A stretch of 64,000 nucleotides of DNA from positions 29,818 to 93,817 of the IMG/VR virus record IMGVR_UViG_3300018481_000019; one strand, written 5' to 3'. Source of the stretch: a virus. Under the pieces are notes generated by a model, which made no database searches, was not told the DNA's origin, and saw only the letters and a list, made by a program, of their open reading frames with translations. A program made the translations under genes and the position numbers. Positions 31,711 to 63,716 of this stretch are shown here, one piece after another. How positions within the stretch are numbered: the first letter of the stretch is position 1; the number at the start of each line of letters is the position of its first letter.

Positions 31711-31864
31711 CGTTTCTCATTTCCACACTGACTACTTCGACAATGTTCTCCCGTTGTCTGTCTCGGGCATACGCCTTGGCTCGCATCTCAGCGACCCGCC
31801 CATCGAAAACGCGTTCGATCAACTCGTCTCCCTTGCGAACGGTGACTACCCACTCAGCTTGCAT
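31694..31864 (-). CDS. 56-aa hypothetical protein
   Basis: MQAEWVVTVRKGDELIERVF and onward; beta-strand then basic helix (RAKAYARDRQREN). It overlaps the start of the helicase gene and the end of the upstream gene; AAGAGAGG is upstream. Confidence 0.6.
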   Translation of the reverse strand: MQAEWVVTVRKGDELIERVFDGRVAEMRAKAYARDRQRENIVEVVSVEMRNDEDQS

Positions 31865-43983: not shown

Positions 43984-44017
43984 GAAAGAGGGAGCCGAGA
44001 AATCGACTCCCTCTTTC
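43984..44017. terminator. Terminator 1 upstream of the capsid gene
   Basis: GAAAGAGGGAGCCGA / TCGACTCCCTCTTTC, near-perfect, T/A-rich ends. 43793-44130 contains no gene: only this hairpin, a second copy, and a 16-base direct repeat (43907-43922 and 44021-44036). Confidence 0.8.
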
Positions 44018-44074
44018 GATTCAAAAAGCAAGTGGTGGGGTAGGAGAAAACTCACTCACTCCCAGAGTGACCAC

Positions 44075-44108
44075 GAAAGAGGGAGCCGGTCATTCGGCTC
44101 CCTCTTTC
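44075..44108. terminator. Terminator 2 after the surface-protein gene
   Basis: GAAAGAGGGAGCCG-GTCATT-CGGCTCCCTCTTTC, perfect 14-bp stem. Together with terminator 1 it isolates the capsid unit from the LPFTG gene. The stem is of the same family as the 53.58-kb terminator. Confidence 0.85.
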
Positions 44109-44130
44109 TTCGCGCGTACTGGACTGTCCG

Positions 44131-45441
44131 TCAGCGTGAGTCTATGCGACCCTTCCGTGTCGTGGCGAGTACCACCAGGCCAAGCAAGCCGAGAGCGCCC
44201 GCCAGGAATGCCAAGGGCTTGATCGGAATGTCGGTGCCGGTGAACGGCAGTATCCCGTCTTCAGGACTCGGCGTGCTCGGAACCAATCGTGGTGTGGTCG
44301 GTGTGACCGGGTTCTCCGGGTTGGCACACTCCGATGATTCCGGTGGGTAGGTGATGAATGCGGTGGCGGTCGGGTTGACCGTGTAGGTGAGGTTGATTCC
44401 CTCACGCAAGAACTCGTCGCTCGGGTCACGGACCCACAGCCCATCGTCGGTGAGAATCCAACCAGGCACGTCGTCTATCGACCCGTCGGCGTTGACACTG
44501 GTGCCGGGGAAGAGCAGATCGACCGTCGTGTTCGGCTCGTAGACAAGAGCCTGCGTGGACACCACGTTCCCATTCACGTCAGCCATTGTCAGCGTGCCGG
44601 TCTGTCCCGCCAGTTCGGGGAAGGTGTTCTGAAACTCAATGCGAATGGTCGGCACTTCAGCCACGCAAACCGTCGTTGCCGCACCGAACACGAACGGTAC
44701 TGTGGTTGTCGTCTCGCCAGGGACCGTCGTGGAGCCAGGGACCGTCGTGGTCGTGGTCGTCTCGCCGGGTAGCGTCGTGGTGGTTGTGGTTGGCCCCAAC
44801 GGTGTCAAGCAAGTGTCCGACGCAAAGGCTCCGGTTTGAGCGTTCACGGCGAGAATCAAAAGCAGGACTCCCGGCGGGAGAACGTCGGCAAGGTCTTGCA
44901 CTGTCTCGTAGGGCCGACCGGCGATGATTGCCAAGGCGATGATCGCATTCACTCCGCCCAACTCTTCCAACTCGACTTGCGGCGCGGTGTTGACATCGAC
45001 GCAGAACTGAGTCGGTGTCGGCGGAGCAGTCGTGGTCGTGGTCGGTTGGGTCGTCGTCGTGGTCGGTTGAGTGGTCGTAGTCGTCGGCTGTGTGGTGGTT
45101 GTCGTCGTGCTCGTCGTGGTGCTGGTAGTGCTGGTGGTTGACGTAGACGTGGTCGTGGTGGGACAAGGTCCGAAGATGTCCTCTTCGTGACCGGCTCTCG
45201 GTGTGCCGTTTTCAAAAAAGTGACCGGCTTGTCCGAAGATCGCCACCCACGGCAAATTCAGTTCTACGAAATGTTCGGTGCCTGCCAGTCCGGTGAAATG
45301 GCAGATCGTGAAATGCTCCGGTGGTCTGGTTGTTTCATCGACGGTGGGCAATGTCGTCTCGGTAGTTCCCATTGCCACCATTGGCAGCGTCATTGCAAAT
45401 AGCAACGCCAACACCGAGACGGCAGCAAGTGCCTTTCTCAT
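44131..45441 (-). CDS. Secreted, sortase-anchored HhH surface protein (LPFTG)
   Basis: 436 aa with GGAGGAAG upstream. Signal peptide (~1-25); a Cys/His module with I-C-H-F-T-G...G-H-E-E-D-I-F-G-P-C (~48-95); Thr-rich linker (~96-145); a helix-hairpin-helix pair of ComEA type, D-V-N-T-A-P-Q-V-E-L-E-E-L-G-G...I-I-A-G-R-P-Y (~152-190); a second Thr linker; a beta domain (~250-370); then L-P-F-T-G (398-402), a membrane helix and an R-K-G-R-I-D-S-R tail. By family it would be exported and joined to the host wall by sortase. Confidence 0.85.
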   Translation of the reverse strand: MRKALAAVSVLALLFAMTLPMVAMGTTETTLPTVDETTRPPEHFTICHFTGLAGTEHFVELNLPWVAIFGQAGHFFENGTPRAGHEEDIFGPCPTTTTSTSTTSTTSTTTSTTTTTTQPTTTTTQPTTTTTQPTTTTTAPPTPTQFCVDVNTAPQVELEELGGVNAIIALAIIAGRPYETVQDLADVLPPGVLLLILAVNAQTGAFASDTCLTPLGPTTTTTTLPGETTTTTTVPGSTTVPGETTTTVPFVFGAATTVCVAEVPTIRIEFQNTFPELAGQTGTLTMADVNGNVVSTQALVYEPNTTVDLLFPGTSVNADGSIDDVPGWILTDDGLWVRDPSDEFLREGINLTYTVNPTATAFITYPPESSECANPENPVTPTTPRLVPSTPSPEDGILPFTGTDIPIKPLAFLAGALGLLGLVVLATTRKGRIDSR

Positions 45442-45616
45442 TCTTCCTCATTCTTCCTCCGATAGACGGCACTTCTCTTTTCCCCGAAAGCGCCAAGAAC
45501 GAAAAGACTACTCTGTGAAAAAGCGAATACCACCCTTGTCTCCGGGGAAGAGCAAAGGTGGCATTCGCTGGTGTCGAGATTCGCAGACTGGCTTGGGAGT
45601 CACAAGCACCGCTACG

Positions 45617-45716
45617 AAAAATCCGGCGAGAGAATTCCCAACTGATTCGTGTCTGCGTGAGAGGTCCGAAGACCTAACCGAGACTCCGCCTCTGTCGGGA
45701 ATCCAACTCGCCGGAC
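45617..45716 (-). ncRNA. Predicted promoter-driven small structured RNA
   Basis: About 100 nt. Closing stem TCCGGCGAG/CTCGCCGGA (9 bp), then GGATTCCC/GGGAATTC (8 bp with one wobble), and an inner AGGTC-TTCG-GACCT hairpin. TTTTT follows the closing stem. The 5' end fits +1 of a TTGCAT-N16-TATGGT promoter. No ORF lies in it; a tRNA fold (no proper T-arm) was rejected. Function unknown. Confidence 0.65.
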
Positions 45717-45721
45717 GTGGA

Positions 45722-45749
45722 ACCATAGCGGTTCCCACCGGGAATGCAA
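45722..45749 (-). promoter_or_regulatory. Promoter for the small RNA: TTGCAT-N16-TATGGT
   Basis: Exact -35 and spacing of the phage promoter family, but -10 TATGGT and no ATTWCA in the spacer. The -35 lies inside an inverted repeat CCGGGAAT/ATTCCCGG (45738-45762), a candidate operator. Nearby, 45767-45799 is another hairpin (12 bp, one mismatch) after the upstream gene. Confidence 0.65.
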
Positions 45750-45802
45750 ATGAGATTCCCGGTTTTCTCGGGCGCTCCGTAAGCCAGGGAGCACCCGAGA
45801 GA

Positions 45803-46249
45803 TTAGCTACTCAGGGTTTCGACCACTTCCAACATCGTCTTCACGGATTCATAGACCTTGGGAATTGCCTTCTCCGCCACGGTCGCATCCTTCTGCGCGG
45901 CAATGGCTACCGCTTCGACACTGTCGTTATGTACCCGAGTCTGTGTGTCTTTCCGACGGGGAACTACTGCTTCCCGACGTTCCATAGGTGACGGTGTCGA
46001 GTTCCGCTTGTACCCGTTGGCATAGACCGGGTTGGTGACGTAGAGCTTGTTGTCCTCCGCCAATTCCAATCGGGCTTGCCGGTCCCAATCCCCTACCGCA
46101 ACCGTGTGTTTGCTCCGCTTGAATCTCGGTAACGCCGATTCCAAGTAGGTCACTATCTCGCCACGGTTGGCGAACGACTGGCCTCCCATGTAAGCCGTCC
46201 GCAACTCGTCAATCGCCGCACGACCAAAGGTCGATCTGGCTTTCTTCAT
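45803..46249 (-). CDS. 148-aa basic/helical hypothetical protein
   Basis: Starts MKKARSTFGRAAIDELRTAY after CAGGAGG and a leader GCGGACAGACACAGAC like those of the promoter family. Basic N-terminal half, variable Arg/Ser/Pro linker and a C-terminal helix (KVYESVKTMLEVVETL). Possibly DNA-binding. Confidence 0.65.
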   Translation of the reverse strand: MKKARSTFGRAAIDELRTAYMGGQSFANRGEIVTYLESALPRFKRSKHTVAVGDWDRQARLELAEDNKLYVTNPVYANGYKRNSTPSPMERREAVVPRRKDTQTRVHNDSVEAVAIAAQKDATVAEKAIPKVYESVKTMLEVVETLSS

Positions 46250-46288
46250 TCGTTCCTCCTGTTTCCAGTCTGTGTCTGTCCGCACGTC

Positions 46289-47119
46289 CTAGAGCAATTC
46301 CTCCACGGTTTTGCCCGCACTTGAAAGTCCGTCTTCGATCAGAGCTACGGCGACTCCGAGCTTGTGCTGCACCTTGGCGATGTCAGCAATCACTTCCGCG
46401 ACCACGGCTTCTGCCGACGGGACACTGCCCTTGCGGAGTAGCCGACTGAATGTCTCGGCCTTCTCCACCACTCCATCGACGGCTGTGTCGGCCTTGTCGA
46501 TAGCAAGCGGTAGCTCGGTGAGAATCCCGATGGTGTCGAGAGCGCCCAACTCCCGCGTCTTGCGGGGAGGTCGAGCCGCTTTCTCTTCGTACATATCGGC
46601 GGCAGAACTGAAGGTGGCTCGGTCGTCACTCACCACGTCAGCGACAATCTCCGGTTCGACTTCGACCAGTTTCTTGATCGCCGTCTTGCGCTGCGCCGGA
46701 GTCATTGTCTCCACGGCTCGTTCGATCTGCTCCGGTGAAGACCCAGGCTCCACCCGAACCCGCTTCCGAACTTCGTCATTGTCGGACGGCGGGAATCCAA
46801 TAGTGGGCAGCTTCACCGTGGCTCCTGGCTTGATGTCGGTGTCGCCCTTCCCCTCTTCCCACGCTTGGCGATAGGACCGGACGGTGTCCGGCTTGGTCAG
46901 ACCATTGATGCCGAGCTTGGCGAACTGGACTGTGCTGAGAGTATTGCCGGGTTCGGCAATTCTTTTGGGCTGTCCAGGCTTGTCGTGTCCATGAGTGAAG
47001 GCATAGACGATTGCCGCCCGCTCCCAACCCTTTGCCGTGAGTAGCGAGTCAATGCCATTGAGGGCATCGGTCGCTTTCTTGATCGTGGTCGGTATGACCA
47101 CTGTGGTTGGTCGTGTCAT
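46289..47119 (-). CDS. HTH-like DNA-binding protein next to the primase
   Basis: 276 aa. N-terminal helices G-W-E-R-A-A-I-V-Y-A-F-T...F-A-K-L-G-I-N-G-L-T-K-P-D-T-V-R-S-Y-R-Q-A-W (~31-92) look like a DNA-binding helix bundle; then a linker and a C-terminal helical region (~135-276). Replication initiator or regulator roles are both possible. Confidence 0.65.
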   Translation of the reverse strand: MTRPTTVVIPTTIKKATDALNGIDSLLTAKGWERAAIVYAFTHGHDKPGQPKRIAEPGNTLSTVQFAKLGINGLTKPDTVRSYRQAWEEGKGDTDIKPGATVKLPTIGFPPSDNDEVRKRVRVEPGSSPEQIERAVETMTPAQRKTAIKKLVEVEPEIVADVVSDDRATFSSAADMYEEKAARPPRKTRELGALDTIGILTELPLAIDKADTAVDGVVEKAETFSRLLRKGSVPSAEAVVAEVIADIAKVQHKLGVAVALIEDGLSSAGKTVEELL

Positions 47120-47440
47120 TCAGTCCTCCGTGTCGAGTAGGTGAGGGTGCGTTTCAAAAATGCCCATGCTCTCTTCAATGTCGAGCATGAGCCAATCGGA
47201 TTCAGTGAGTTTGAAATCCTCATTGAATGCCGCTCGCATCTGGTCGAGAATGTGAAGCAGGCCGGGGTCTTTCAAACCGTAGGTCGAGTAGGTGAGGTCG
47301 ATTGCTTTGAGCAAGACCATGCCGTCTCGTATCGCGTCGTGCTCCACCGCCACTTCCAATGCGGCAATCATGCTGTCGATCAACATTCTCGCTTCGTCGG
47401 GCGAGCGGTCGCTGAAAAATCCCTTTGATTCATTGGTCAA
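47120..47440 (-). CDS. 106-aa acidic helical protein
   Basis: TTG start preceded by AAGGACG. All-alpha acidic protein (DEARMLIDSMIAALEVAVEH; W-L-M-L-D-I-E-E-S-M). Not recognised. The 73 bases before the primase gene's stop hold no gene. Confidence 0.55.
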   Translation of the reverse strand: MTNESKGFFSDRSPDEARMLIDSMIAALEVAVEHDAIRDGMVLLKAIDLTYSTYGLKDPGLLHILDQMRAAFNEDFKLTESDWLMLDIEESMGIFETHPHLLDTED

Positions 47441-47513
47441 AAGCGTCGTCCTTGTCTGGGTCTGGCTACTGCGTGCCAGATGCTAGCCGGAGCTTTCAAA
47501 ATTTCAAGCTGTG

Positions 47514-50087
47514 TCAAACGTGTCTCGGCATGGTGGCGATGATCCACTCCGGCTTGCGCCCACGTCCGGTTCCCACCGTTCCGGTTTCCTCTTTCCAGAT
47601 GTGGACAAACCCGGCTCGGCTGAGACGGGCAAGGGCGGCGTTCATCTGCTCGGTGGTGCGGTGATAGCCGAACGCTTTTGAAAGCCCGCTGCGGGTGGTT
47701 GGCTCGGTGGGGTGCTCACGCACCGCGGACAGGATTTCATTGGCGACATCTGACCGTGTCACTCCGCCGAACAGGGCTTGCACCGTGTCTTCTGAGTATT
47801 GCGCCCAAGCCAAGCCCGCTTCGTAGTCGCCCATCCTGATTTCATCCGACCCATCGACCACGGCATAGATCAAAGCGGTGCGGAGAACGTGCGCCGTCTG
47901 TCGGGAAATCATGGCCCCGAGACTCCCCGCTTCGACACCCTTGCGGCGGAGTACCGGATAGTCGGTGCGCCGCCAGCGCTCGGCTACCTCTTTTGAAAGC
48001 GTCACGGAGCGAGTCGATGATCCGCCATAGGCAGTGAACTCACCGGCGAACTTGATCTTGGTGGCGATGTCGGCAAGGGCTTCGGTATCGACGTGTCCGC
48101 CGTCGGGCAGAATGACATCGTCGGTGTCGGTGTAGACCCAAGTGAAGCGATTGCCTAGCCCATCGGTGGTGGACAGTTTTGAAAAGTGGGCCTGCAACTC
48201 GGTGGGAGTGATAGCTGCGCTGATTGCTAGATGGTGATTGCTACTCACCTTGCTTCTCGCCGCTGCCGTCGAGTAGCGGAGCGGGGAAGACTGGTCGTAG
48301 GCATCTCGGAGCAATGGGCTGAGGATGGAATTCTCATAACCCATCGGCCCGAGCAGGCTCCCTAGCTCTTCATAGAGCAGGGTGACCCGCTGGTCTTCCC
48401 GGCCTGATTTCAGACTGCCGGTTTTTGAATCGTAGACCGGGTCGGCCAAGTCCAGAATGATCGCTTGGCCCGAGCCGAAACCATTGAGGCAGTTGCCGTC
48501 AACAAACCCCGGCTCCAATAGCTCAAAGAACTTTTTCACAACCCTGAATGCGGTGCTCTTCCGCCCGAGTCCGGTGGGCGCAACCAGGCACCAGAACATA
48601 TTGGCGCTGTGCTCCACGTCGCCGTGGACAAACCTCACGCCTCTGCCGAGCACGGTGCCGAGCACCGGGATCAGCACCGAGCCAATCGACGGAATCGGGG
48701 CTTCTGATGCCCCGTCGTAGATGCGGAGCACTTCCCCGATGTTGCCGTGGAACACGGCGGAGTCGAGCTTGGGCGCTTCCCCGATCAGATCGCCTTCCCG
48801 ATAGAGACGGCGGTTGACCGGCAAGGTGAATCCCTCTTCGACCCATGTTGGGATTGGCGGTGGCTTGGGTGGCTCGCCGCTGGTGGCCTCTTCCCAATCG
48901 GGTTCCAGCTTGGGGTCGTACTCGGCCTTGGCGGGCTTGGGTTCCTTGGCGGCGGGCCGCGCCATATGGGTTCCATCTGGGTCGGGGGGAGCCGTTTTGG
49001 AATCGCTTTCCAAATCGGGCGGGTTGGTCGGTGTTAAAGCTGGCTTTTCCTCAACTGGTTGCTCGGTTTTTGTTTCCGAGTCCGAGATGTCCGGCGGTGG
49101 CGGGACTTCGTCCGGGTCGGGCGGCGGCTCTGGTGGCTCGTAGTCGTAAAGCCCCTTGTCCGAGCGCATGTTGATGATTTCAACGTCGTAGTAGCCACTG
49201 AGAATCTTGGTGGCGGCCCCTTCCCACATGCTCTTGTAATCGGCTTCCCGCTGTGCGGTGTAGCGCTTGTGCGGATTTTCACTGATGTCCCGCCATTCCT
49301 GATAGGTGTCTTCGATTTGGAGAAAGGCGTCTTGCGCCGGGTAGAAACCGGCTGCGGATTCAATGGCGGCTTGCAGAATCACGTCTCGGGCGGCTTGGCG
49401 GCGGTGCATCCCGGCCTTGACCTTGTTGGGGAAGGTGTCGGTGGTGACACGGTCCAAAAACGCCTGCCCGATGGTGCCTTCAAGGTCGCTGGTGTCGTAG
49501 CTGGCGAAGAACGTGGGGAGTGGATCGTGCGGATCGAATTCGATTGCCGGTGGGCTGCCGGGGATGCCGCGGGTGGGCGGCGGCGTAGACGGAACCATGC
49601 CAAGGTCGAATAGCTCAACCAGCTTGGCGGGTACATCTGCAATCTCCCGGTCGATCAGATCGGTGTCCGGCGAGCAGACAACGTATCCGCCGGTTGCTTT
49701 GATGTCGCCGCCGGGGATGGGCCTGCCGGTGCAGACGCCGCGGTAGTAGTAGTGCGGTTGGCCCTTGGTGAGACTCATAATCTCTAGGGTCGGATGCTCT
49801 TTCAAAACTGCGAGCAGTGCAGTCGGTGTCGCTTCCGGGGTGTCGATGTCCACCACGCACAAAGCGCTCTTGCCGCAATCGACGCCGATGTAGGCGCTGC
49901 CTCCTGCCAGCTTCCAATGACGGCGGATTGCTTCCGGGTCTTGGGTGGAAACCTCTTGCCAGTTCTTGCCATGCGTGATCGGACGTTTATCTGAATTCAC
50001 CGGAAAGACAAAGGCGTCGAGCTTGGCGGCGACCTTGATTGCGAAGTCGGCTCGGACGGGTTCGGTGCGGTGGGTGGGCATGGTCAC
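47514..50087 (-). CDS. Prim-pol primase fused to a DUF3987-like helicase
   Basis: 857 aa. N-terminal bifunctional primase-polymerase: V-F-P-V-N-S-D-K-R-P-I (~28-38), G-V-D-C-G-K...C-V-V-D-I-D-T (catalytic Asp pair), Q-P-H-Y-Y-Y-R-G and T-G-G-Y-V-V-C-S-P. A long Pro/Glu linker (~315-400) follows, then a helicase/ATPase core with C-L-V-A-P-T-G-L-G-R-K-S-T (~500) and V-T-L-L-Y-E-E-L-G-S (Walker B-like). A C-terminal winged helix (Q-M-N-A-A-L-A-R-L-S-R-A-G-F-V-H) ends it. The main replication initiation/priming protein of this phage. Confidence 0.85.
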   Translation of the reverse strand: MTMPTHRTEPVRADFAIKVAAKLDAFVFPVNSDKRPITHGKNWQEVSTQDPEAIRRHWKLAGGSAYIGVDCGKSALCVVDIDTPEATPTALLAVLKEHPTLEIMSLTKGQPHYYYRGVCTGRPIPGGDIKATGGYVVCSPDTDLIDREIADVPAKLVELFDLGMVPSTPPPTRGIPGSPPAIEFDPHDPLPTFFASYDTSDLEGTIGQAFLDRVTTDTFPNKVKAGMHRRQAARDVILQAAIESAAGFYPAQDAFLQIEDTYQEWRDISENPHKRYTAQREADYKSMWEGAATKILSGYYDVEIINMRSDKGLYDYEPPEPPPDPDEVPPPPDISDSETKTEQPVEEKPALTPTNPPDLESDSKTAPPDPDGTHMARPAAKEPKPAKAEYDPKLEPDWEEATSGEPPKPPPIPTWVEEGFTLPVNRRLYREGDLIGEAPKLDSAVFHGNIGEVLRIYDGASEAPIPSIGSVLIPVLGTVLGRGVRFVHGDVEHSANMFWCLVAPTGLGRKSTAFRVVKKFFELLEPGFVDGNCLNGFGSGQAIILDLADPVYDSKTGSLKSGREDQRVTLLYEELGSLLGPMGYENSILSPLLRDAYDQSSPLRYSTAAARSKVSSNHHLAISAAITPTELQAHFSKLSTTDGLGNRFTWVYTDTDDVILPDGGHVDTEALADIATKIKFAGEFTAYGGSSTRSVTLSKEVAERWRRTDYPVLRRKGVEAGSLGAMISRQTAHVLRTALIYAVVDGSDEIRMGDYEAGLAWAQYSEDTVQALFGGVTRSDVANEILSAVREHPTEPTTRSGLSKAFGYHRTTEQMNAALARLSRAGFVHIWKEETGTVGTGRGRKPEWIIATMPRHV

Positions 50088-50118
50088 TAGGAGCTAGTCC
50101 TTGGCGGCTTTTTGAAAG

Positions 50119-50553
50119 TCATGGGAGCCAGATGGATTTGATGCGGGTGGCGGTAACCACGTCCGCGAAGACCTCCGGGTAGACGGCTTCCAGCTTGGCT
50201 CGGTTGATCGAAGACCTTACGGAGACTCGTAAGGTCGCCGCCACCTGGCCGCTGGCGGTGAAAACCTGACTCTCGCCGGTGGATTCAAGGTGGTCGAGGA
50301 TGATTCTTCTCACCGCTTCCTCTTCGGTTTCGATGCTTTTGCGGGCGGCTCTTAGCTCTCCGAGACGGCGGGCATATTCGGCAATGCTGCCAATGGCGGT
50401 TGCGGTTGGTTCCGGCTCTGGGATTGGTTCGGGGTCTATGGGAGCGGGGTGTGCGGGTGCGGCTCCGGCCCCGATGTAGTCGGGGTCGGTGGTGACGTGC
50501 GGGCTGTCTTCTCGGTCTGGTGGGCCTGGTGGAGCGGGCGGCTCATAGGTCAT
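50119..50553 (-). CDS. Gp157-like small coiled-coil protein
   Basis: 144 aa. Pro/Asp/Glu-rich N-terminal half, then I-A-E-Y-A-R-R-L-G-E-L-R-A-A-R coiled coil and a C-terminal S-S-I-N-R-A-K-L-E-A-V-Y-P-E-V-F-A-D-V-V. This end resembles Gp157-like siphovirus proteins. It is first in the leftward primase unit, downstream of the control region. Confidence 0.65.
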   Translation of the reverse strand: MTYEPPAPPGPPDREDSPHVTTDPDYIGAGAAPAHPAPIDPEPIPEPEPTATAIGSIAEYARRLGELRAARKSIETEEEAVRRIILDHLESTGESQVFTASGQVAATLRVSVRSSINRAKLEAVYPEVFADVVTATRIKSIWLP

Positions 50554-50713
50554 GCGGACTAACTCCGTCTTCGTGGGCGGGTGGGCCTCTCACCGTAGCT
50601 GGTGGGAACGGCGGTGTCGCTTGGTCTGGGGGATTGCTAGCGGGAGATTTCGCGGACTTTCCAATGCCGATGAATTGGAATGGGTTTTGGGAATTGCAGG
50701 GTAATTCCTGTGA

Positions 50714-50729
50714 TCGAACGGACGTTTGG
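50714..50729. promoter_or_regulatory. SOS-box-like palindrome 1
   Basis: TCGAACGGACGTTTGG: one half-site perfect, other with one change. Matches CGAAC-RNRY-GTTCG, the Gram-positive/actinobacterial LexA pattern. Confidence 0.6.
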
Positions 50730-50733
50730 GGGA

Positions 50734-50745
50734 GAACAGATGTTC
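50734..50745. promoter_or_regulatory. SOS-box-like palindrome 2
   Basis: GAACAGATGTTC, followed by GA. Both GAAC/GTTC halves are perfect and the centre AGAT fits RNRY. Confidence 0.7.
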
Positions 50746-50783
50746 GACAAAACCTATTCTTCTGCGGGTTTTGCGACCGATGG

Positions 50784-50795
50784 GAACGGGTGTTC
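50784..50795. promoter_or_regulatory. SOS-box-like palindrome 3
   Basis: GAACGGGTGTTC followed by GG; centre GGGT fits RNRY. Confidence 0.65.
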
Positions 50796-50919
50796 GGGTG
50801 GACTTAATTCTGACCTGGGAATGTCTTGGCTCGGGGCTGAGGGGGGCGGAGCTAATTGGGAACTTGGTCAGATTTGAAAGAATCCCTGCTGGTGATTGGC
50901 GAAAAGCCTGATTTCCGAA

Positions 50920-51066
50920 TTAATTGGGGTACCCCCTATACCTCTTGAATTCGACGGAACCCTCACAACTTCCTTTGAGAGAGAGTTTTTATTAATGATT
51001 CATTGAGTTTTTTGAATTCTTCTGCAAGGTTTACGACGGGTGTAGGTATAGGGGGTACTCAAATTA
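50920..51066. repeat. 24-base inverted repeat flanking an AT-rich patch
   Basis: 50920-50943 and the reverse complement of 51043-51066 match at 22 of 24 positions (both contain TACCCCCTATACCT). The 99 bases between include an AT-rich run around 50985-51020, the most AT-rich stretch I saw in the window. Candidate origin or site-specific element. Confidence 0.75.
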
Positions 51067-51141
51067 AGTCGTTTGAAGGGGTCTGAATTCTTCTGCAAGG
51101 GGGTGTGGGTAGTCGTAACGGGTGCAGAGTATTGGCCCAAA

Positions 51142-51157
51142 TCGAACATATGTTCGG
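51142..51157. promoter_or_regulatory. SOS-box-like palindrome 4 (best match)
   Basis: TCGAACATATGTTCGG: one base from the full 16-base actinobacterial LexA consensus TCGAAC-N4-GTTCGA. Confidence 0.75.
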
Positions 51158-51450
51158 GGGGTGGAGACGCTGGTGGCCCGATCCCCGCCTGCAACGGAGC
51201 CAATTACTCTGCAACCCCCCCTCTGAGGGTGTCGTAAAACTTGCAGGGTAATTCCTGAGAGGGTGGTTGGTGAGAGCGAACGGGTGGCTCGGTAGGCTCG
51301 GCGCTGCCAGGGTCGGTCTGCCCCCCTTGTCCATCCTCCCGGTTGCGCCAGGGGGAACGGACGGGCTGACTCTGGCTGAGTCTTCTGGGCTGAAGATGCT
51401 TTTGAAAAGTGCTCTGACCTGGGCCTTTGGCCTACTGTCAAACCCTTCAG

Positions 51451-51596
51451 CCTCAACGGAGCACTAGTCCCACTCACTGTCGAGAGGGTGTTGATGCTGT
51501 GGGGCTGTGCTTCTCGCTGACCTCAACGGAGCCGTTTTTGAAAGGGGCCGTCTTCGATCTGCCCCTCACTGGGGAACTCCGCTGGCCTCAACGGAG
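51451..51596. repeat. Three direct repeats CCTCAACGGAG
   Basis: Copies begin at 51451, 51521 and 51586 (spacing 70 and 65), each preceded by a CAG/CTGA/CTGG-type context. TTGCAGGGTAATTCCTG also repeats at 50694-50710 and 51241-51257. Iteron-like, or regulator sites. Confidence 0.65.
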
Positions 51597-52092
51597 AGGT
51601 TTTGGGGGGTAGGTTGCTGGGCTGCTCACTCTCGCTGTTTTTGAAACTGGCACGTCCTGGCCCGCCGGGTATGCCCCCATGCCAACCCTGCATTGTCAAG
51701 TGGCTGTGCTCACCCCCTTCCCCCTTGCCAATACCCAGGCAGTGTGTTGGCTCTTAGCTGTGCTGTGCTCTGACACTTTCCCCTTTTTGAAAAGTTGCCT
51801 CTGCCTCTGAGTTGCCTCTTCACTGCCTGACTCTTGCCTCTTCAGCTTGTGACTCTTGCCCTGCCCTGATCCCTGACCTCTGATGCTGTGCTCCCTGACT
51901 CTGTGAGAATTATTCGTGGGTGCAAGCGGTCTTTGGGTGGTGAGGCTGGCCGATTCCAAAACTCCGTCTCCGTCACCGCCTGTGCGGAAGGTGGGACTGG
52001 TCGCGTCGAGAAAAGTTGGACCGGGTACGTCGTATCTAGGGGATGCCCCGCTCACAGACCAAGGCTTCGGGTGAGGGGGTACACTTCAGAAA

Positions 52093-52602
52093 ATGTGCAG
52101 AGTTGATGGTTGCCCCTTCCCAATCCTGATTAAGAAACACTCCCTCTGTTCAGCCCACTATCAACGCTTCTGGAAGTACGGCGACCCAATGAGCTTCATG
52201 CCGATCCGAACCGGGAAGACGGCTTACGAAATTGTGATGGAGCGCACACGTCCACCAAGACCAGACGAACCCAAGGACTGTTTGATCTACACCGGCCCCA
52301 CCAAGAACGGCGGTTACGGAGTCTTACAATTCGACAATCGGAAACTCCGAGCACATCGAGTCGTAATGGAACATCACAACGGTCCTTCCGCCCAAGACGT
52401 TCTTCACTCCTGCGACTACAAGCCCTGCGTCAACATCGACCACTTGCGATACGGCGACTACTCCGACAACTATGAGGACCGAGTTTTGAATCGGGGAGAA
52501 TCCACTCGTCTTTGCGAAGTCCCACTCTGCACTCGCAAGCACGCTGCCAAAGGCATGTGCCAGATGCACTATCTCCGAGAGTTGAGAAGATCGACCAAGT
52601 GA
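52093..52602 (+). CDS. HNH endonuclease with flanking zinc modules
   Basis: 169 aa. The HNH core is V-L-H-S-C-D-Y-K-P-C-V-N-I-D-H-L-R-Y-G-D (~98-117), preceded by R-A-H-R-V-V-M-E. Cys/His modules at both ends, C-R-V-D-G-C...C-S-A-H-Y-Q-R-F-W-K-Y-G and C-E-V-P-L-C...C-Q-M-H-Y-L-R-E-L, are related to each other. Free-standing homing-type nuclease or a packaging-linked HNH; first rightward gene after the control region. Confidence 0.8.
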   Translation: MCRVDGCPFPILIKKHSLCSAHYQRFWKYGDPMSFMPIRTGKTAYEIVMERTRPPRPDEPKDCLIYTGPTKNGGYGVLQFDNRKLRAHRVVMEHHNGPSAQDVLHSCDYKPCVNIDHLRYGDYSDNYEDRVLNRGESTRLCEVPLCTRKHAAKGMCQMHYLRELRRSTK

Positions 52603-52614
52603 GACAATCCCCCC

Positions 52615-52821
52615 ATGAGACTTGTCCTGGCTCTAGTCGCCACGGCCCTTGCCATAGCTGCGCTCTGGATCGCATCTGACCCCCGTACCTCTCAGAACGG
52701 CTATCACCGCAAACGACACAGATACCAAGAGCCAACTTACAAAAGGTGGGCCGTGGTCTACACCCTGCTCGCAGCCAGCTTCGCAATCCTTGCCGCCTTC
52801 TGGCCTCAGTTGACCCAATGA
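52615..52821 (+). CDS. 68-aa membrane protein with two helices
   Basis: MRLVLALVATALAIAALWIA and onward. Membrane segments at ~2-20 and ~45-64 with a basic loop between (HRKRHRYQEPTYKR). Followed by an ATAGTTC/GAACTAT hairpin (~52827-52844). Confidence 0.65.
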   Translation: MRLVLALVATALAIAALWIASDPRTSQNGYHRKRHRYQEPTYKRWAVVYTLLAASFAILAAFWPQLTQ

Positions 52822-52885
52822 CTCAATAGTTCTGAGGAACTATTCAAGCCGTCCATAATTCGGACGATAATCCCCCCAAGAAAGA

Positions 52886-53001
52886 GTGAAGGCTCTGACG
52901 GTCGCCCGTCTGAATCGGCGGGTGGCGGTCTTATACCTTTCTTCTGCCACCCGGCTCACTGTGGGGGTTTCGGGCAGGCGGGCGGCTCTCAGAGCCTTCA
53001 C
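52886..53001 (+). ncRNA. Structured leader RNA before the Ltp-like gene
   Basis: Nested stems: P1 13 bp perfect (52886-52898 with 52989-53001), P2 10 bp with one G-U (52903-52912 with 52975-52984), P3 8 bp perfect (52919-52926 with 52946-52953). It ends 21 bases before the ATG and leaves AAAGGGG free. A possible -10 GATAAT lies at 52866-52871. Could be a cis-regulator or a stable small RNA; no known riboswitch is recognised. Confidence 0.65.
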
Positions 53002-53022
53002 ACCAAACAGAAAGGGGTCAAC

Positions 53023-53550
53023 ATGACTTCAGACACACAGGCTCCCACCGAGCCAACCAAGACCAAGAAACCCATCTACAAGCGAGTGTGGTTCATCGCC
53101 GGAGCCGGAATCCTGGCTATCACCATCGCCGCCAATGCAGGCGGAGGAAGCGCCCCGGCTACCTACGAAGAGGTTGCGGCTTCACGACCGACGACCACCA
53201 CCAATGCCAACGGCGGCGGCGGCGAGACGCAAGCTCCGGCCCCGACCACTGCACCGGCTCTCACCCGAGCACAGGAGAATGCAATCGGCAGTGCCGAGTC
53301 CTACTTGGATTTCAGTGCTTTCAGTCGGAGCGGATTGATCGGTCAGTTGGAGTACGAAGAGTATTCCACCGCCGATGCCACCTTTGCAGTGGACTCGCTC
53401 AACGTCGATTGGAACGAGCAGGCGTACAAGAGCGCCGAGCAGTATTTGGACTTCTCGTCCTTCTCTGCCGGGGAACTTCAAGACCAGTTGGAGTTTGAGG
53501 GTTTCACTCCCTCCCAAGCCGCCTACGGAGTGTCCAAGACCGGCCTCTAG
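53023..53550 (+). CDS. Ltp-like superinfection exclusion protein
   Basis: 175 aa. Short cytoplasmic start, one membrane helix (~22-41), Thr/Gly/Pro linker, then two repeats of the Ltp/host cell surface-exposed type: A-I-G-S-A-E-S-Y-L-D-F-S-A-F-S...L-I-G-Q-L-E-Y-E and A-Y-K-S-A-E-Q-Y-L-D-F-S-S-F-S...L-Q-D-Q-L-E-F-E. Ltp of Streptococcus phage TP-J34 blocks incoming phage DNA. Anchored outside the membrane, this protein likely protects the infected cell. Confidence 0.85.
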   Translation: MTSDTQAPTEPTKTKKPIYKRVWFIAGAGILAITIAANAGGGSAPATYEEVAASRPTTTTNANGGGGETQAPAPTTAPALTRAQENAIGSAESYLDFSAFSRSGLIGQLEYEEYSTADATFAVDSLNVDWNEQAYKSAEQYLDFSSFSAGELQDQLEFEGFTPSQAAYGVSKTGL

Positions 53551-53581
53551 CCAACCGCCAACCCAGGCCAAGAGGCCCGAG

Positions 53582-53609
53582 AAAGGGAGCCGAGAAATCG
53601 GCTCCCTTT
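53582..53609 (+). terminator. Terminator after the Ltp-like gene
   Basis: AAAGGGAGCCGA-GAAA-TCGGCTCCCTTT with a T-run. Perfect 12-bp stem, same family as the 44-kb terminators. Confidence 0.9.
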
Positions 53610-53613
53610 TGAG

Positions 53614-53641
53614 TTGCATTAGATTTCAAACCAGTTATAAT
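53614..53641 (+). promoter_or_regulatory. Promoter: TTGCAT-N16-TATAAT (rightward)
   Basis: The only family member found on the plus strand; spacer contains GATTTCA. It opens the run of small genes at 53.7-57.3 kb, with leader CAGAGCAGACCAAGACC and AAAGGA. Confidence 0.9.
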
Positions 53642-53675
53642 CAGAGCAGACCAAGACCAAGAAAGGAACATGCCC

Positions 53676-53894
53676 ATGACCAGACAACACTTTGAGATGG
53701 TGGCGAACACCATCTGGACTGCAATCGCGCAGGCCAAGTTGAATAAATCCTCTACCGACCATTACGTCGATCACTACATCGACGGCATCACCGACGTTGC
53801 GGAACGCCTTGCCGACAAATTCATCGAAACCAATCCCCGCTTCGACCGCGCCCGCTTCATGGATGCCGCTCTCAACGGCGGATTACTGCCCTGA
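53676..53894 (+). CDS. Conserved small protein (NPRFDRARF type)
   Basis: 72 aa starting MTRQHFEMVANTIW; AAAGGA lies eight bases upstream (an ATG two codons earlier is too close). H-Y-I-D-G-I-T-D-V-A-E-R-L-A-D-K-F...N-P-R-F-D-R-A-R-F-M is a well-known actinophage small protein. Ends G-G-L-L-P, a loose form of the recurring tail peptide. Confidence 0.75.
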   Translation: MTRQHFEMVANTIWTAIAQAKLNKSSTDHYVDHYIDGITDVAERLADKFIETNPRFDRARFMDAALNGGLLP

Positions 53895-54304
53895 TGCCAC
53901 TGATGAACGAACCCCCGGCTCCGCTCACCGCCGAGAAACTCAATGACGTGGCATGGGCGCTCGACGCTCTGACCAAAGTGAGTCGGTCACTGCTAGAGCC
54001 AATCGCCGCAGCCGGTGAACAGGACACACTCCATCTCACCGAAGTCACGGTGGAAGTGACCATGCACGGCGAGCCGATCAGTCCCGAAGATGCTCGGACA
54101 CTCTTGGAGTGGCTCGACGGCGACGAGATGCAGAACGATCTTCGGGCGGAGGCAAAGCGGCGGGAGACGCGGTCATTCGACTTCCCATACGACGACATAC
54201 GGCGGGCAGTGACGAATGCTCTGTTCGACCATGAGTCACCACAAGATCAAACGAATGTCATTGTGGAGAAGGTGCGTCAGATCATGGTGGAGGAATCCGA
54301 ATGA
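53894..54304 (+). CDS. 136-aa hypothetical protein
   Basis: Starts MPLMNEPPAPLTAEKL (TGATG overlap). Helical; contains L-T-E-V-T-V-E-V-T-M-H-G-E-P strands. Not recognised. Confidence 0.65.
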   Translation: MPLMNEPPAPLTAEKLNDVAWALDALTKVSRSLLEPIAAAGEQDTLHLTEVTVEVTMHGEPISPEDARTLLEWLDGDEMQNDLRAEAKRRETRSFDFPYDDIRRAVTNALFDHESPQDQTNVIVEKVRQIMVEESE

Positions 54305-54564
54305 GCGCTGAACTACACCGAGCCGAGCTAGAGGTTGTCCTACGGGACCAGTTCGACAACATCGGATACGGACACGCCGCCGCCACCAATGACGACATTC
54401 TCAGAGAGCTTGAAATCACCGACGAGATGGTGCAGTTGCTAGCTGGCCTCTTGTCCACGATTCCGATACAGCCGTCGAAGATGCACCCCGAGCACATGAT
54501 CGAAACGGCTCGGGTGGCATTGGAGATGCTCGTTCGGAGCGCCGACGGAGGGGAAGAGGAATGA
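54301..54564 (+). CDS. 87-aa acidic helical protein
   Basis: MSAELHRAELEVVLRDQFDN; ATGA overlaps at both ends. All-alpha. Not recognised. Confidence 0.65.
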   Translation: MSAELHRAELEVVLRDQFDNIGYGHAAATNDDILRELEITDEMVQLLAGLLSTIPIQPSKMHPEHMIETARVALEMLVRSADGGEEE

Positions 54565-54806
54565 CCGGAACCTTGCTGACTCTGCCGGTGACAACCGACA
54601 AGATGATCGACCGTGCAATTGCCAAAGCCGACGAATTGCTGGTGGACTACGAGACGGGCTACTGCACCTATGACGGGTGGGGAATCCGACAGTGCTGCGC
54701 CGCTTGGAGTCCAGCGGTTCGTCTCAACATCATGGACCGCTCAGAGCTAGACCAGGCCGTTCGACAAATCGTGACTGCGGCATTGGCAGGGGAGGAAGAG
54801 GAATGA
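54561..54806 (+). CDS. 81-aa protein with a C-C pair
   Basis: MTGTLLTLPVTTDKMIDRAI; contains Y-C-T-Y-D-G-W-G-I-R-Q-C-C. Overlap ATGA. Not recognised. Confidence 0.65.
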   Translation: MTGTLLTLPVTTDKMIDRAIAKADELLVDYETGYCTYDGWGIRQCCAAWSPAVRLNIMDRSELDQAVRQIVTAALAGEEEE

Positions 54807-55093
54807 GCAGGGAAGCAGACGTGACCGAACCGAGAACCAAGTTGGGCGGGTGGAACTACCGGCTGATCGTGACCGTGAATGACAACGGCGACACCGATAT
54901 GGAAGTCCATGAGGTCTATTACTCAGAGAACGGCGTACCCGATTCGTGGACGATTGAGCCGGTCGAGTTTGGTGGGGAGTCGGTCGAAGAGGTTGCCCGC
55001 GCCCTGACCCAAGCTGCCGCTGACGTGCTCGCTCAACCGCCGCTCATTGAGAAGGATGGAATCCTCACCGAGTATGAAGGGCCGGGAGCGTGA
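54803..55093 (+). CDS. 96-aa hypothetical protein
   Basis: MSREADVTEPRTKLGGWNYR after GGAGGAAGAGG. Beta-rich (NYRLIVTVNDNGDTDMEVHE), then an Ala-rich helix. N-terminal strand order resembles the 58.3-59.8-kb paralogs. Confidence 0.65.
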   Translation: MSREADVTEPRTKLGGWNYRLIVTVNDNGDTDMEVHEVYYSENGVPDSWTIEPVEFGGESVEEVARALTQAAADVLAQPPLIEKDGILTEYEGPGA

Positions 55094-55506
55094 ACATGGC
55101 GGGGAACACCGAATGGGAAACCAGTGCCGATTCGATTCGGGAGCGTCATTGTGTCACTTGCGATCACACCGGCTACTCGCATTTCTACGACCGGCTCGGC
55201 AACTTGGCGGAGTGCCATGTATCGGCCTGCAAATGCCTGCTCTTCTCCGACCCGACCGGGCTATCTCCCACTGAGATTGACACGATGATGTCGCAGTGTT
55301 GGGACGAAGATGCCGATGCGATCATTCACAACATCGCTGCCTTGATCGCCGGATTGCAAGTGCCGATATCTCTTGGCATGGGCCGTGATGGGGTTCTCGG
55401 GACTGCCGCCGAGCCGTGGCATGAGCTATTCAACGTCGTGGGCGGAGGATGGTGTACCACGGAGGAAATCGAATCCCGACTGCGGGAAAGGCTCACTCCG
55501 AGATGA
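55090..55506 (+). CDS. 138-aa Cys-containing protein
   Basis: GTG start with GTGA overlap (an ATG lies two codons later). C-V-T-C (~21-24) and C-x-x-x-x-C (C-H-V-S-A-C-K-C; ~43-50) make a zinc site; the rest is helical. Confidence 0.65.
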   Translation: MNMAGNTEWETSADSIRERHCVTCDHTGYSHFYDRLGNLAECHVSACKCLLFSDPTGLSPTEIDTMMSQCWDEDADAIIHNIAALIAGLQVPISLGMGRDGVLGTAAEPWHELFNVVGGGWCTTEEIESRLRERLTPR

Positions 55507-55685
55507 AGCCGGAATGGGTGACCGCTGGCACCCGAGCGCCGTTTCGGATTCTGTTTTGGAGTGAGCATGAGGAAGCTCTGGCCTGGGTTTTTGAAAACGG
55601 CGGAACCATCGCCCGTATCCCCGACCACGTTGACGGCACAGGCCGTGGCTACGTGTGGGGCCAATCACAGGAGGAAGAGGAATGA
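55503..55685 (+). CDS. 60-aa hypothetical protein
   Basis: MKPEWVTAGTRAPFRILFWS; ATGA overlap. Aromatic-rich alpha/beta; acidic EEEE end that also encodes the next ribosome site (GGAGGAAGAGG). Confidence 0.65.
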   Translation: MKPEWVTAGTRAPFRILFWSEHEEALAWVFENGGTIARIPDHVDGTGRGYVWGQSQEEEE

Positions 55686-55885
55686 TGAAGCTCAGTGACA
55701 TTGATGTGTTCTACACCAATGACGACGATGGAATTCATTTGCTGTGCAATGTCTGTTCGTGGGAAACCACGATTCCAGGGAACGAAGCCGATCTGGACAC
55801 TGTGCTGGACACAGGCCGGGGTGATGAGCACTGGCGGAAGCACAGTGAGAATTGGACCGAGTCTGAGGACGAAGAGCAGTCGTGA
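55682..55885 (+). CDS. 67-aa acidic protein
   Basis: MMKLSDIDVFYTNDDDGIHL; contains L-L-C-N-V-C-S-W. Overlap ATGA. Not recognised. Confidence 0.65.
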   Translation: MMKLSDIDVFYTNDDDGIHLLCNVCSWETTIPGNEADLDTVLDTGRGDEHWRKHSENWTESEDEEQS

Positions 55886-56136
55886 ATTTACAAGAGGCTA
55901 TAAACGAAGTCGAGTTCCGTATCTCGGACGAGATTGAGGACTGGCACCACTACGAAGTAGACAAGGTGCTGGCGACCCACGCTATCAAGGCGGCTGACTT
56001 CCCCAACGCCGATCAGATGGTGGAACTGGCCCAAGTCATTCACACCGCCCAAGACGAGCACGGATTGAAAACCCGGCACGACATTGGGCTGATCGTCGGG
56101 GAGGCGATACGTCAAATGTTGAGGGAGCCGGAATGA
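55882..56136 (+). CDS. 84-aa helical protein
   Basis: GTG start (GTGA). M-N-L-Q-E-A-I-N-E-V, His-rich helix (W-H-H-Y-E-V-D-K-V-L-A-T-H). Not recognised; resembles the next gene product in composition. Confidence 0.65.
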   Translation: MNLQEAINEVEFRISDEIEDWHHYEVDKVLATHAIKAADFPNADQMVELAQVIHTAQDEHGLKTRHDIGLIVGEAIRQMLREPE

Positions 56137-60970: not shown

Positions 60971-61155
60971 GGTCCGCCCAACTTGCGCTCGCCTACTTGG
61001 GCGGGGCGCTGCTTCTGCTCTCGACCATTCTCTTCACCACCAACGCTTCTGACACGGCGGTCACTTTTGCGGTTATCTTTGCAATAGCAGGATTGGTCGT
61101 CGTCGCTGCACTCGGGGCGATCATCATTTACGAAGCCCGAAGGACGGGAACATGA
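60967..61155 (+). CDS. 62-aa membrane protein with two helices
   Basis: GTG start (GTGA). Hydrophobic segments ~4-23 and ~30-54, then a basic end E-A-R-R-T-G-T. Coupled to the MuF gene by ATGA. Could be a holin-like or injection-site protein. Confidence 0.6.
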   Translation: MRSAQLALAYLGGALLLLSTILFTTNASDTAVTFAVIFAIAGLVVVAALGAIIIYEARRTGT

Positions 61156-63716
61156 CCACGCGGCAAGCGGAGCCGGTCACAGCGGAGCAAGTTCAGGAGC
61201 TTCCCCGAGATGTGTCACCGTATTTACAAGCCCTGGTACTCGCCTATCTTGCCTCCGGCGGTGAGGACTCAGAGCAGACCAACCGCCGAGCGGTCCTTTT
61301 CCGCAAGGCTCTTGCTGCCGCTGCCCTTGGCGCGTTCCTGTTCCGTGACCGGGACAAGGATGCCACCGTCGATATCGACTTCACCGAAACTGCCGAGCCT
61401 TTCACCGCCGCGGTGAAGGAATCGGTGAATGACTATCTAGCTCGGGACGATGAGGGTCGGGATTCAAAAACGGATTCCAAGTTTGCCGAATCGGTCGCCA
61501 GCACCCTTTCCACCGGCGCAGCCAATCGACTCACCCTGGAAGTTCTCAACCAACTCGACCCGGACGGCACCGCTTACAAAAAGCTGTGGCTAACTCGGGG
61601 CGACGAGAAGGTCCGTCTCTCACACCGGGAGCTTCATGGCCGCACTGCCAGCGTCGGGGAGCCTTTCAAAAAGGGGCTGAACTATCCCGGCGATCCCACC
61701 GCTCCGCTGGACGAGCGGATCAACTGCCGGTGCTTCCTTTTCGCAGTCCCGTCGGACAAGGACACCGAGACTGCCAACGCCTTTGAACCGGCTGATCTGA
61801 CCACCGCTTTCGCCGCCAGCGCCACCCTTCACGTCCTCACTGCCGGAGACACATTGCGGCGGCTGATAAATCTTGCGCCCTGGCTATGGCAACCGCGGGA
61901 TTCGATTGGTCGGTGGGTCGAAGTGGGCGACATTATGAATGCCCCTGGTTCGTCGGGAAAGGGCCGGGAGAACGGGCGAGTGGTCGAAGTCATTGGGAAG
62001 AACCGGGTTCGTTTGGAAAGTCTCCGCTTCCCCGGTCGCACATGGGACGTGGATTCTCGGGACACCGCACAGCAATTTTTCAAGGGGCGGCTCGGGATGG
62101 ACGACAGACCGACCTTGCCCCATCTTCAGCCGATTCCCACTCCCAAGGCCCGCGGTCTTCCGCCGGAGTTTGGGGAACTGACCCCGGAGATTCCAAATCG
62201 TCCGGTAGAGCGCGAGCTTCGCACGCCGGTCTATGGCCTGGATCAGCAAGTGGCGGGCGCTCCCATTTTTGAAAGCGATGAACTGACTCCCGGCAAGGTC
62301 GTGGTGGTGGAGTCCAAGTCCAAGCCGGGAACCTTCCGACACATGGTTGTGGACGAAGTCGGTGAGGACGGCAACACGGTTCTCTTGCTCTACCCGCCCG
62401 AGCCACGGCGCAAGTCGGCAGAGGCGACTTACCAGGGACCGCATGGGCAATTTGAATACAACCGGGTCTTCCAGTTGCAGTCTCCGTCGGCTCGCCAGGA
62501 AGTCTTTTTGAATGAAGGCGTGCTTTACGAACCGGCTGATCCTGACTTGGCGCAAGAGGTCACCGAGCGTATGGATATGGGCCGATACGGTTTTGCAAAT
62601 CCGTACTGGTTCAGTAGCACAGAAGACGCATTCAAACAGGGAGGCGCTCGCACGGACTGGAACCCAGAACGCAAGGAATTGCACGACAAGATAATTCAGG
62701 AGACTTTCGACGCGGCACTGGTCGCGGACGGGCCACCGATCTTCTACCTCATGGGTGGCGGGCCTGCATCGGGAAAGAGCACGATGCTGGAAGCCGAGTT
62801 GGTGCAAGTCCCGACCGGCAATGGCGCGATTCAAGTCAATGCCGACGACATCAAGTTTGAAATCCCTGAGTTCATCGGGTTACTGGAAGCCAATGAGAAG
62901 AACGCCGCTCAGTTCGTGCATGAAGAGTCCTCAGACATCTCGGGCCGGATGGTTCGGGAAGCCCCACTCGACAAGCACATCGTCATGGACGGGGTTGCTG
63001 ACAAGGGCGCGGGCGCGGTGCTCAGTCGATTGGAAACCGCTCGGAAGCGGAACATGAGGATCGTCGCCAACTACGCCACCCTCCCAACCGATATGGCGAT
63101 CCGGCTCGCTGACGAGCGTGGTGCTGTGACGGGTCGGTACGTTCCCCATCCCTTTATCGAAAAGACGCACGCCGATGTGGTCGATACCTTTTTCGATCTG
63201 GCGAAGGGCGGCGTGATCCATGAGATGTGGCTGTGGAACAATGAGATTTTCAGAGAGCCGCGACTGATCTTCAGTCAAGTGGACGGGGTTTCCAAGATTC
63301 ACGATGAAGCTCTGCTCTTGGAATTTCTGAACAAGAGCAAGACCAAGCGACACACGATGGAAAGCGTCGTCGCCATGACTGACAGTGGTTTCGCCTTCCC
63401 GCCCGCGCCGCCGTATCTGCCGCCGACGCCGACACCGCCGGGGGCGATTCTGCCGGAGGTATCCGGTGTAGCTGGTGAAGTGCCAGCGAGTTTGGCGGCG
63501 GCAGGATTGGAGGCCGTCGTGGAGGACGGGTATTGGAATCTGGACTACGACACGATGGAGCGAGCGGCAATCGAAGTCTCCGCCGAGATGCGCGGTTCGG
63601 TGGGTCCATCCCGGCTCCCCGACGATGATCCTCAGATCAACGCTTTCAAGGAAGCGCTGCGGGCTGAGTTCGCCGCCAACCCCGACCGGCAGTATTGGTT
63701 GCCGAACAATCCGTGA
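61152..63716 (+). CDS. MuF head protein fused to a zeta-toxin-like kinase
   Basis: 854 aa. N-terminal helices, then a MuF domain (~145-194: L-W-L-T-R-G-D-E-K-V-R-L-S-H...Y-P-G-D-P-T-A-P...I-N-C-R-C). At ~250 W-Q-P-R-D-S-I-G-R-W-V-E-V-G recalls the L-H-P-R-G-x-D-G-K-F-I-E modules at 3.3 and 4.5 kb. The C-terminal part holds a P-loop G-G-G-P-A-S-G-K-S-T (~535-544), V-N-A-D-D-I-K and D-K-H-I-V-M-D-G-V-A, as in zeta/PezT kinases of UDP-sugars or nucleotides. Such MuF-toxin fusions are packaged effector candidates. Confidence 0.8.
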   Translation: MTTRQAEPVTAEQVQELPRDVSPYLQALVLAYLASGGEDSEQTNRRAVLFRKALAAAALGAFLFRDRDKDATVDIDFTETAEPFTAAVKESVNDYLARDDEGRDSKTDSKFAESVASTLSTGAANRLTLEVLNQLDPDGTAYKKLWLTRGDEKVRLSHRELHGRTASVGEPFKKGLNYPGDPTAPLDERINCRCFLFAVPSDKDTETANAFEPADLTTAFAASATLHVLTAGDTLRRLINLAPWLWQPRDSIGRWVEVGDIMNAPGSSGKGRENGRVVEVIGKNRVRLESLRFPGRTWDVDSRDTAQQFFKGRLGMDDRPTLPHLQPIPTPKARGLPPEFGELTPEIPNRPVERELRTPVYGLDQQVAGAPIFESDELTPGKVVVVESKSKPGTFRHMVVDEVGEDGNTVLLLYPPEPRRKSAEATYQGPHGQFEYNRVFQLQSPSARQEVFLNEGVLYEPADPDLAQEVTERMDMGRYGFANPYWFSSTEDAFKQGGARTDWNPERKELHDKIIQETFDAALVADGPPIFYLMGGGPASGKSTMLEAELVQVPTGNGAIQVNADDIKFEIPEFIGLLEANEKNAAQFVHEESSDISGRMVREAPLDKHIVMDGVADKGAGAVLSRLETARKRNMRIVANYATLPTDMAIRLADERGAVTGRYVPHPFIEKTHADVVDTFFDLAKGGVIHEMWLWNNEIFREPRLIFSQVDGVSKIHDEALLLEFLNKSKTKRHTMESVVAMTDSGFAFPPAPPYLPPTPTPPGAILPEVSGVAGEVPASLAAAGLEAVVEDGYWNLDYDTMERAAIEVSAEMRGSVGPSRLPDDDPQINAFKEALRAEFAANPDRQYWLPNNP

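Follow-up and report, generated by a model that had tools for sequence, protein, structure and literature searches.

Four palindromes that lie inside a 442-bp stretch of a phage control region are well supported, by their match to known sites, as LexA boxes of the actinobacterial type. The cluster is real and strongly non-random. The phage carries no recognisable repressor or integrase, and it probably lets the damage alarm of its host time its multiplication. The analysed window is a 64,000-nucleotide stretch that covers bases 29818-93817 in a virus record of 93,817 bp, and the first-pass annotation had reported the palindromes at window positions 50714-51157. All four are present there.

For a view of the whole genome, the remaining 29.8 kb was added and the record was joined. 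The record ends (1-320 and 93500-93817) repeat about 320 bp with few mismatches, an imperfect overlap. Because the first and last ~320 bp are nearly identical, we take the ~93.5-kb genome to be essentially complete and either circular or circularly permuted. A simple codon model called 116 genes on the joined record. Leftward genes form a block between 50.55 and 8.85 kb. A rightward block starts at ~53.0 kb and continues across the contig ends as far as 8.44 kb, apart from a small leftward patch at 57.9-59.8 kb. These two blocks diverge at 50554-53022, a 2.47-kb noncoding stretch that is by far the longest in the genome and is interrupted solely by an HNH endonuclease gene (52093-52602). This divergent region is home to all four boxes, which are noncoding and not scattered. 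The genes that frame it are as follows.

50119-50553, minus strand: first gene of the leftward operon, 144 aa, no assigned function
47514-50087, minus strand: primase/polymerase with a Prim-Pol N-terminus; PHROG DNA primase/helicase
53023-53550, plus strand: Ltp-type lipoprotein of the superinfection-exclusion family, the first clear rightward gene past the HNH gene

Ltp-type superinfection-exclusion lipoprotein genes are frequent cargo of temperate phages. Three further features of the window were recorded. An odd CT-rich noncoding stretch that repeats CCTCAACGGAG and TTTTTGAAA lies at 51334-51950, between the LexA-box region and the HNH gene. An 854-aa protein (61152-63716, plus strand) joins a Mu F-like head-protein domain to a Zeta-toxin-like kinase domain. 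A gene beside the capsid gene, at 44131-45441 on the minus strand, encodes a protein predicted to be secreted, in which Thr-rich linkers and an HHH_3 motif accompany a C-terminal cell-wall anchor of the LPFTG type. The window had no Rfam match.

The boxes had been described as clustering upstream of the leftward primase unit, and they do lie in the control region that precedes the primase operon. Scores are in bits, from the matrix described below.

50714-50729, no strand assigned: LexA-type box L1, TCGAACGGACGTTTGG, score 17.2, genome rank 3, full fit to CGAACRNRYGTTYG
50732-50747, no strand assigned: LexA-type box L2, GAGAACAGATGTTCGA, score 17.9, genome rank 2
50782-50797, no strand assigned: LexA-type box L3, GGGAACGGGTGTTCGG, score 12.8, genome rank 5, the weakest
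51142-51157, no strand assigned: LexA-type box L4, TCGAACATATGTTCGG, score 23.2, genome rank 1, the strongest

The first-pass annotation also had all four cores fitting CGAAC-RNRY-GTTCG. This is correct for the fourth core, CGAACATATGTTCG, which fits completely, but not for the other three. The L1 core, CGAACGGACGTTTG, matches the looser pattern CGAACRNRYGTTYG that most actinobacterial lexA promoters have, and the L2 and L3 cores (AGAACAGATGTTCG and GGAACGGGTGTTCG) lack the 5' C. The L2 core GAACAGATGTTYGA is also found in Nocardia/Rhodococcus lexA promoters. Real lexA boxes are typically TCGAACACATGTTTGA and TCGAACAGATGTTTGA, which makes both the GTTTG in L1 and the AGAT at the centre of L2 ordinary variants. 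At lexA loci of the Mycobacteriales type, a box of this kind was upstream in every case (80 of 80), and 79 of the 80 were perfect to CGAACRNRYGTTYG. Across the phylum (n = 70), 37 lexA upstream regions had a perfect box and 14 had one with a single mismatch, compared with 0 and 1 in shuffled controls.

A LexA matrix was built from 51 lexA-promoter boxes sampled across Actinomycetota. The training boxes score 15.2-23.2 bits (median 19.6), on a matrix that is sharper than an unbiased one because these boxes were chosen with a one-mismatch limit. L4, L2 and L1 fall inside this range of real lexA promoters and L3 falls below it. L4 ties with the top training lexA promoter, and its flanks and ATAT centre match too. 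A whole-genome scan with an actinobacterial LexA matrix, the check proposed when the palindromes were first noticed, ranked the four sites 1, 2, 3 and 5. The rank 4 site, at 31803 inside a gene, is the sole other site above 12.8.

Could chance or base composition have clustered such palindromes with no LexA function? The genome-wide total is what such an account would predict: the exact form GAAC-N4-GTTC (GAACNNNNGTTC) occurs five times in the 93,817-bp genome compared with ~2 expected, which is unremarkable. Three of these five fall within 422 bp of one noncoding region. Palindromes at the same density elsewhere would have spoken against the cluster, and related phage DNA favours it instead: 1.32 Mb of it holds 12 sites scoring at least 12.7, never two within 450 bp. 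The expectation at that density is 0.004 sites per 442 bp, and four in 442 bp has a Poisson P of ~1e-11. This value and the top matrix ranks of the four sites refute chance clustering as a statistical explanation, and we regard a cluster devoid of LexA function as extremely improbable.

The boxes are embedded in an origin-like region, a feature absent from the first-pass annotation. Its elements are listed here.

50895-51094, no strand assigned: most AT-rich 200 bp of the genome (41% GC compared with 57%), a candidate unwinding element, located between L3 and L4
50694-50711, minus strand: iteron-like repeat, partial copy, touching L1
50754-50777, plus strand: iteron-like repeat, degenerate copy, between L2 and L3
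51014-51037, plus strand: iteron-like repeat GAATTCTTCTGCAAGGTTTACGAC
51085-51100, plus strand: iteron-like repeat GAATTCTTCTGCAAGG
51231-51254, minus strand: iteron-like repeat GAATTACCCTGCAAGTTTTACGAC
50916-50943, no strand assigned: left arm of an inverted repeat, 28 bp, 89% complementary to its partner at 51044-51071
51044-51071, no strand assigned: right arm of the inverted repeat, 28 bp, with the arms 100 bp apart

Around the AT-rich core there are thus five copies of the ~24-bp repeat GAATTCTTCTGCAAGGTTTACGAC. Three are partial or degenerate, and nothing else in the genome matches the two full ones at comparable identity. Together, an AT-rich core, iterons and an inverted repeat upstream of a primase look like the anatomy of an iteron-type origin. 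With three boxes to the left of the core and one to its right, the array could cover the core as well as each outward direction. No DnaA boxes were found near the region, the genome's only two being at 34419 and 47600. Scans of the region for sigma-70 promoters (by consensus) and for intrinsic terminators found none above chance; the boxes lie upstream of the primase operon, yet the consensus scan located no early promoter there. PafBC-type RecA-NDp promoters were also sought, and none was found.

Which protein would bind the boxes? The earlier statement that no integrase or CI-type repressor is encoded now holds for the whole, essentially complete genome, as far as recognisable families go. 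Six-frame searches of the genome found no S24 peptidase, HTH_3/XRE domain, tyrosine or serine recombinase (integrase or resolvase) or ParA, and Pfam and PHROGs scans found no repressor among most of the called proteins. A LexA mimic made by the phage had been raised as an alternative to host LexA. We made LexA and LexA-HTH HMMs from collected lexA genes, full-length and HTH-only, and searched with filters off; no such mimic was found (best E 0.62). With no recognisable phage repressor, LexA homologue or mimic, host LexA is the best candidate binder. Host LexA acting at these predicted operators is the most economical reading, and we favour it with moderate confidence. Regarding the host, the nearest relatives of the major capsid protein and of DNA polymerase A are in actinobacterial phages, and the lineages of the nearest Ltp relatives carry LexA-type boxes at lexA, as seen in two genomes with 58% identical Ltp proteins. 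As further host clues, tRNAs were sought and none was found, and the LPXTG-like protein had no match in genome contigs.

We then turn to paired boxes across IMG/VR. At least 120 IMG/VR stretches contain a pair of GAACRNRYGTTC boxes spaced 25-55 nt apart, compared with 16 for the control palindrome CAAGRNRYCTTG, which makes paired LexA-type boxes at least 7-fold commoner than a matched control. Among the matches listed, 46 loci pack four to nine boxes into 600 bp. The families beside the arrays, again among the matches listed, include helicases, DNA methylases, DnaB, RuvC and terminase, and neither S24 nor HTH_3 is among the 25 commonest of them. Seven loci among the matches listed encode proteins of 70-115 aa that match only the LexA DNA-binding domain (the N-terminal HTH), with no peptidase.

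L259, 7803-8066: LexA-HTH-only protein
L281, 2386-2691: LexA-HTH-only protein
L283, 7994-8257: LexA-HTH-only protein
L331, 2-220: LexA-HTH-only protein
L413, 833-1177: LexA-HTH-only protein
L265, 1959-2207: LexA-HTH-only protein
L399, 4612-4866: LexA-HTH-only protein

These proteins sit ~1 kb from the paired boxes, and in L413 the gene overlaps them. No LexA-HTH-only protein was found in 1.46 Mb of control loci. They are candidates for non-cleavable LexA mimics like gp6 of phage GIL01. The excess of boxes and the HTH-only proteins support the view that such arrays are true viral LexA-type operators. The survey also supports a picture in which some viruses add a peptidase-less LexA mimic and the present phage does not. 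Separately, near-perfect CGAACATATGTTCG-type boxes number 10-21 per 11-15 kb in six viral contigs of 35-38% GC (L274, L295, L292, L267, L249 and L332). The majority of these boxes are intergenic, as in a genome-wide distributed LexA-box or stoperator-like system, and L274 and L295 are mutually related.

The survey bears on a different binder, a phage repressor or initiator of an unrecognised family, for which the likeness to LexA boxes would be convergence or mimicry. Mimicry does occur, given the short LexA-HTH proteins encoded near or overlapping the paired boxes of other viral contigs, and most genes near the box region of the present phage have no known family (Pfam and PHROGs). Yet the genome encodes no LexA, S24 or HTH_3 homologue, and L4 equals the best lexA promoter down to its flanks and ATAT centre, which exceeds what a generic operator needs. 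We therefore consider such a binder unlikely.

If host LexA is the binder, the four palindromes would be its operators in the divergent control/origin region of this tailed phage of actinobacteria. As long as the cell is undamaged, dimers of LexA would occupy the strong boxes L4, L2 and L1 plus the weaker L3. Bound LexA would silence the leftward early operon, the gene at 50119-50553 and then the primase, and would probably hinder an initiator at the interleaved iterons and the AT-rich core. Upon DNA damage, RecA would trigger LexA self-cleavage and the region would be freed. Early transcription and replication would then begin. The weak point of this scheme is persistence. Neither an integrase nor ParA was found, so once silenced the genome would need to be kept as a circle that replicates itself or stays in a carrier state. 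We infer that LexA binds and represses, that damage releases it and that the region is an origin. As a biological role for the boxes, this scheme makes a good and testable proposal.

A broader version can be stated. Early transcription and origin firing may both be handed to host LexA, through boxes interleaved with iterons, in a complete tailed actinophage that has no repressor or integrase. The phage may further belong to a wide and mostly undescribed group of viruses in which arrays of LexA boxes, sometimes joined by peptidase-less LexA mimics, take the place of a CI-type switch. We advance this version tentatively, and it may well claim too much.

The same boxes could instead serve a virulent phage as a LexA sponge or timing device, in which phage copies titrate LexA and raise SOS genes, or LexA briefly delays replication. 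The genome does look lytic, since it encodes its own DNA polymerase A, clamp, helicase, Sak4-like protein and exonuclease and has no integrase. However, there are just four sites, all in one control/origin region, a location that titration would not require, and the weaker L3 would contribute little to a sponge. We judge this use of the boxes quite improbable.

Conservation was examined in relatives. Single-sequence scans found no close relatives of the primase, polymerase or capsid, and the phage collection held no DNA-level match to 44000-56000. A profile search with the capsid reached relatives at 35-48% identity. The 19 capsid-relative records, searched whole, contain six GAACRNRYGTTC in total, none clustered, and the box cluster is not conserved in the virion-related phages reached.

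If host-LexA control is true, damage control by host LexA with no phage repressor would extend from a small Bacillus tectivirus to large tailed actinophages, and the operator would be fused with a replication origin. Uncultured integrase-free actinophages, which are usually filed as virulent, would gain a testable damage-dependent switch. The IMG/VR survey suggests that the layout recurs, so "no integrase, no repressor" would be an unsafe sign of a purely lytic phage.

The closest known system is GIL01, a Betatectivirus of Bacillus thuringiensis, in which host LexA with the co-repressor gp7 is the proven lysogeny repressor (PMC4551915, PMC6182141). GIL01 carries LexA-type boxes (CGAAC-N4-GTTCG) where its replication genes come under early control, encodes no repressor of the usual kind and does not integrate (PMC4551915, PMC6182141, PMC9700832), a layout that the present phage probably shares. 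GIL01 has a linear 15-kb tectivirus genome that replicates by protein priming, whereas the genome described here is that of a 93.5-kb tailed actinobacterial phage. GIL01 also carries gp7, the LexA co-repressor, and gp6, a truncated LexA homologue, and no LexA homologue was found here. Unlike those of GIL01, the boxes of the present phage surround an origin-like region.

The LexA motif of Streptomyces venezuelae is tCGAAC-N4-GNNCGa, and some of its prophage genes are LexA targets (PMC9380542). The actinobacterial SOS box, in lexA promoters and in the S. venezuelae regulon, is the same palindrome, with the RNRY centre and GTTYG variants. Those boxes are single, in host gene promoters, whereas here four lie in one viral control region. 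PSOSP predicts damage-dependent induction from the presence of a LexA box in a prophage promoter (PMC12527982); its prophages are chromosomal and are found next to a host lexA, whereas the present genome has no integrase. The Streptomyces tectiviruses WheeHeim and Forthebois are temperate, and a scan with an actinobacterial LexA matrix found no sites in them (PMC6950372), in contrast to the present phage. The stoperators of cluster A mycobacteriophages are many scattered sites in one orientation, whereas the palindromes here are confined to one 442-bp region. Lambda-type CI/S24 immunity places a gene for an HTH and S24-peptidase repressor beside its operators, and the present phage has none. 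LexA-controlled phages are already known, and the proposed layout would be a variant of them, with boxes embedded in an origin-like region of a tailed actinophage.
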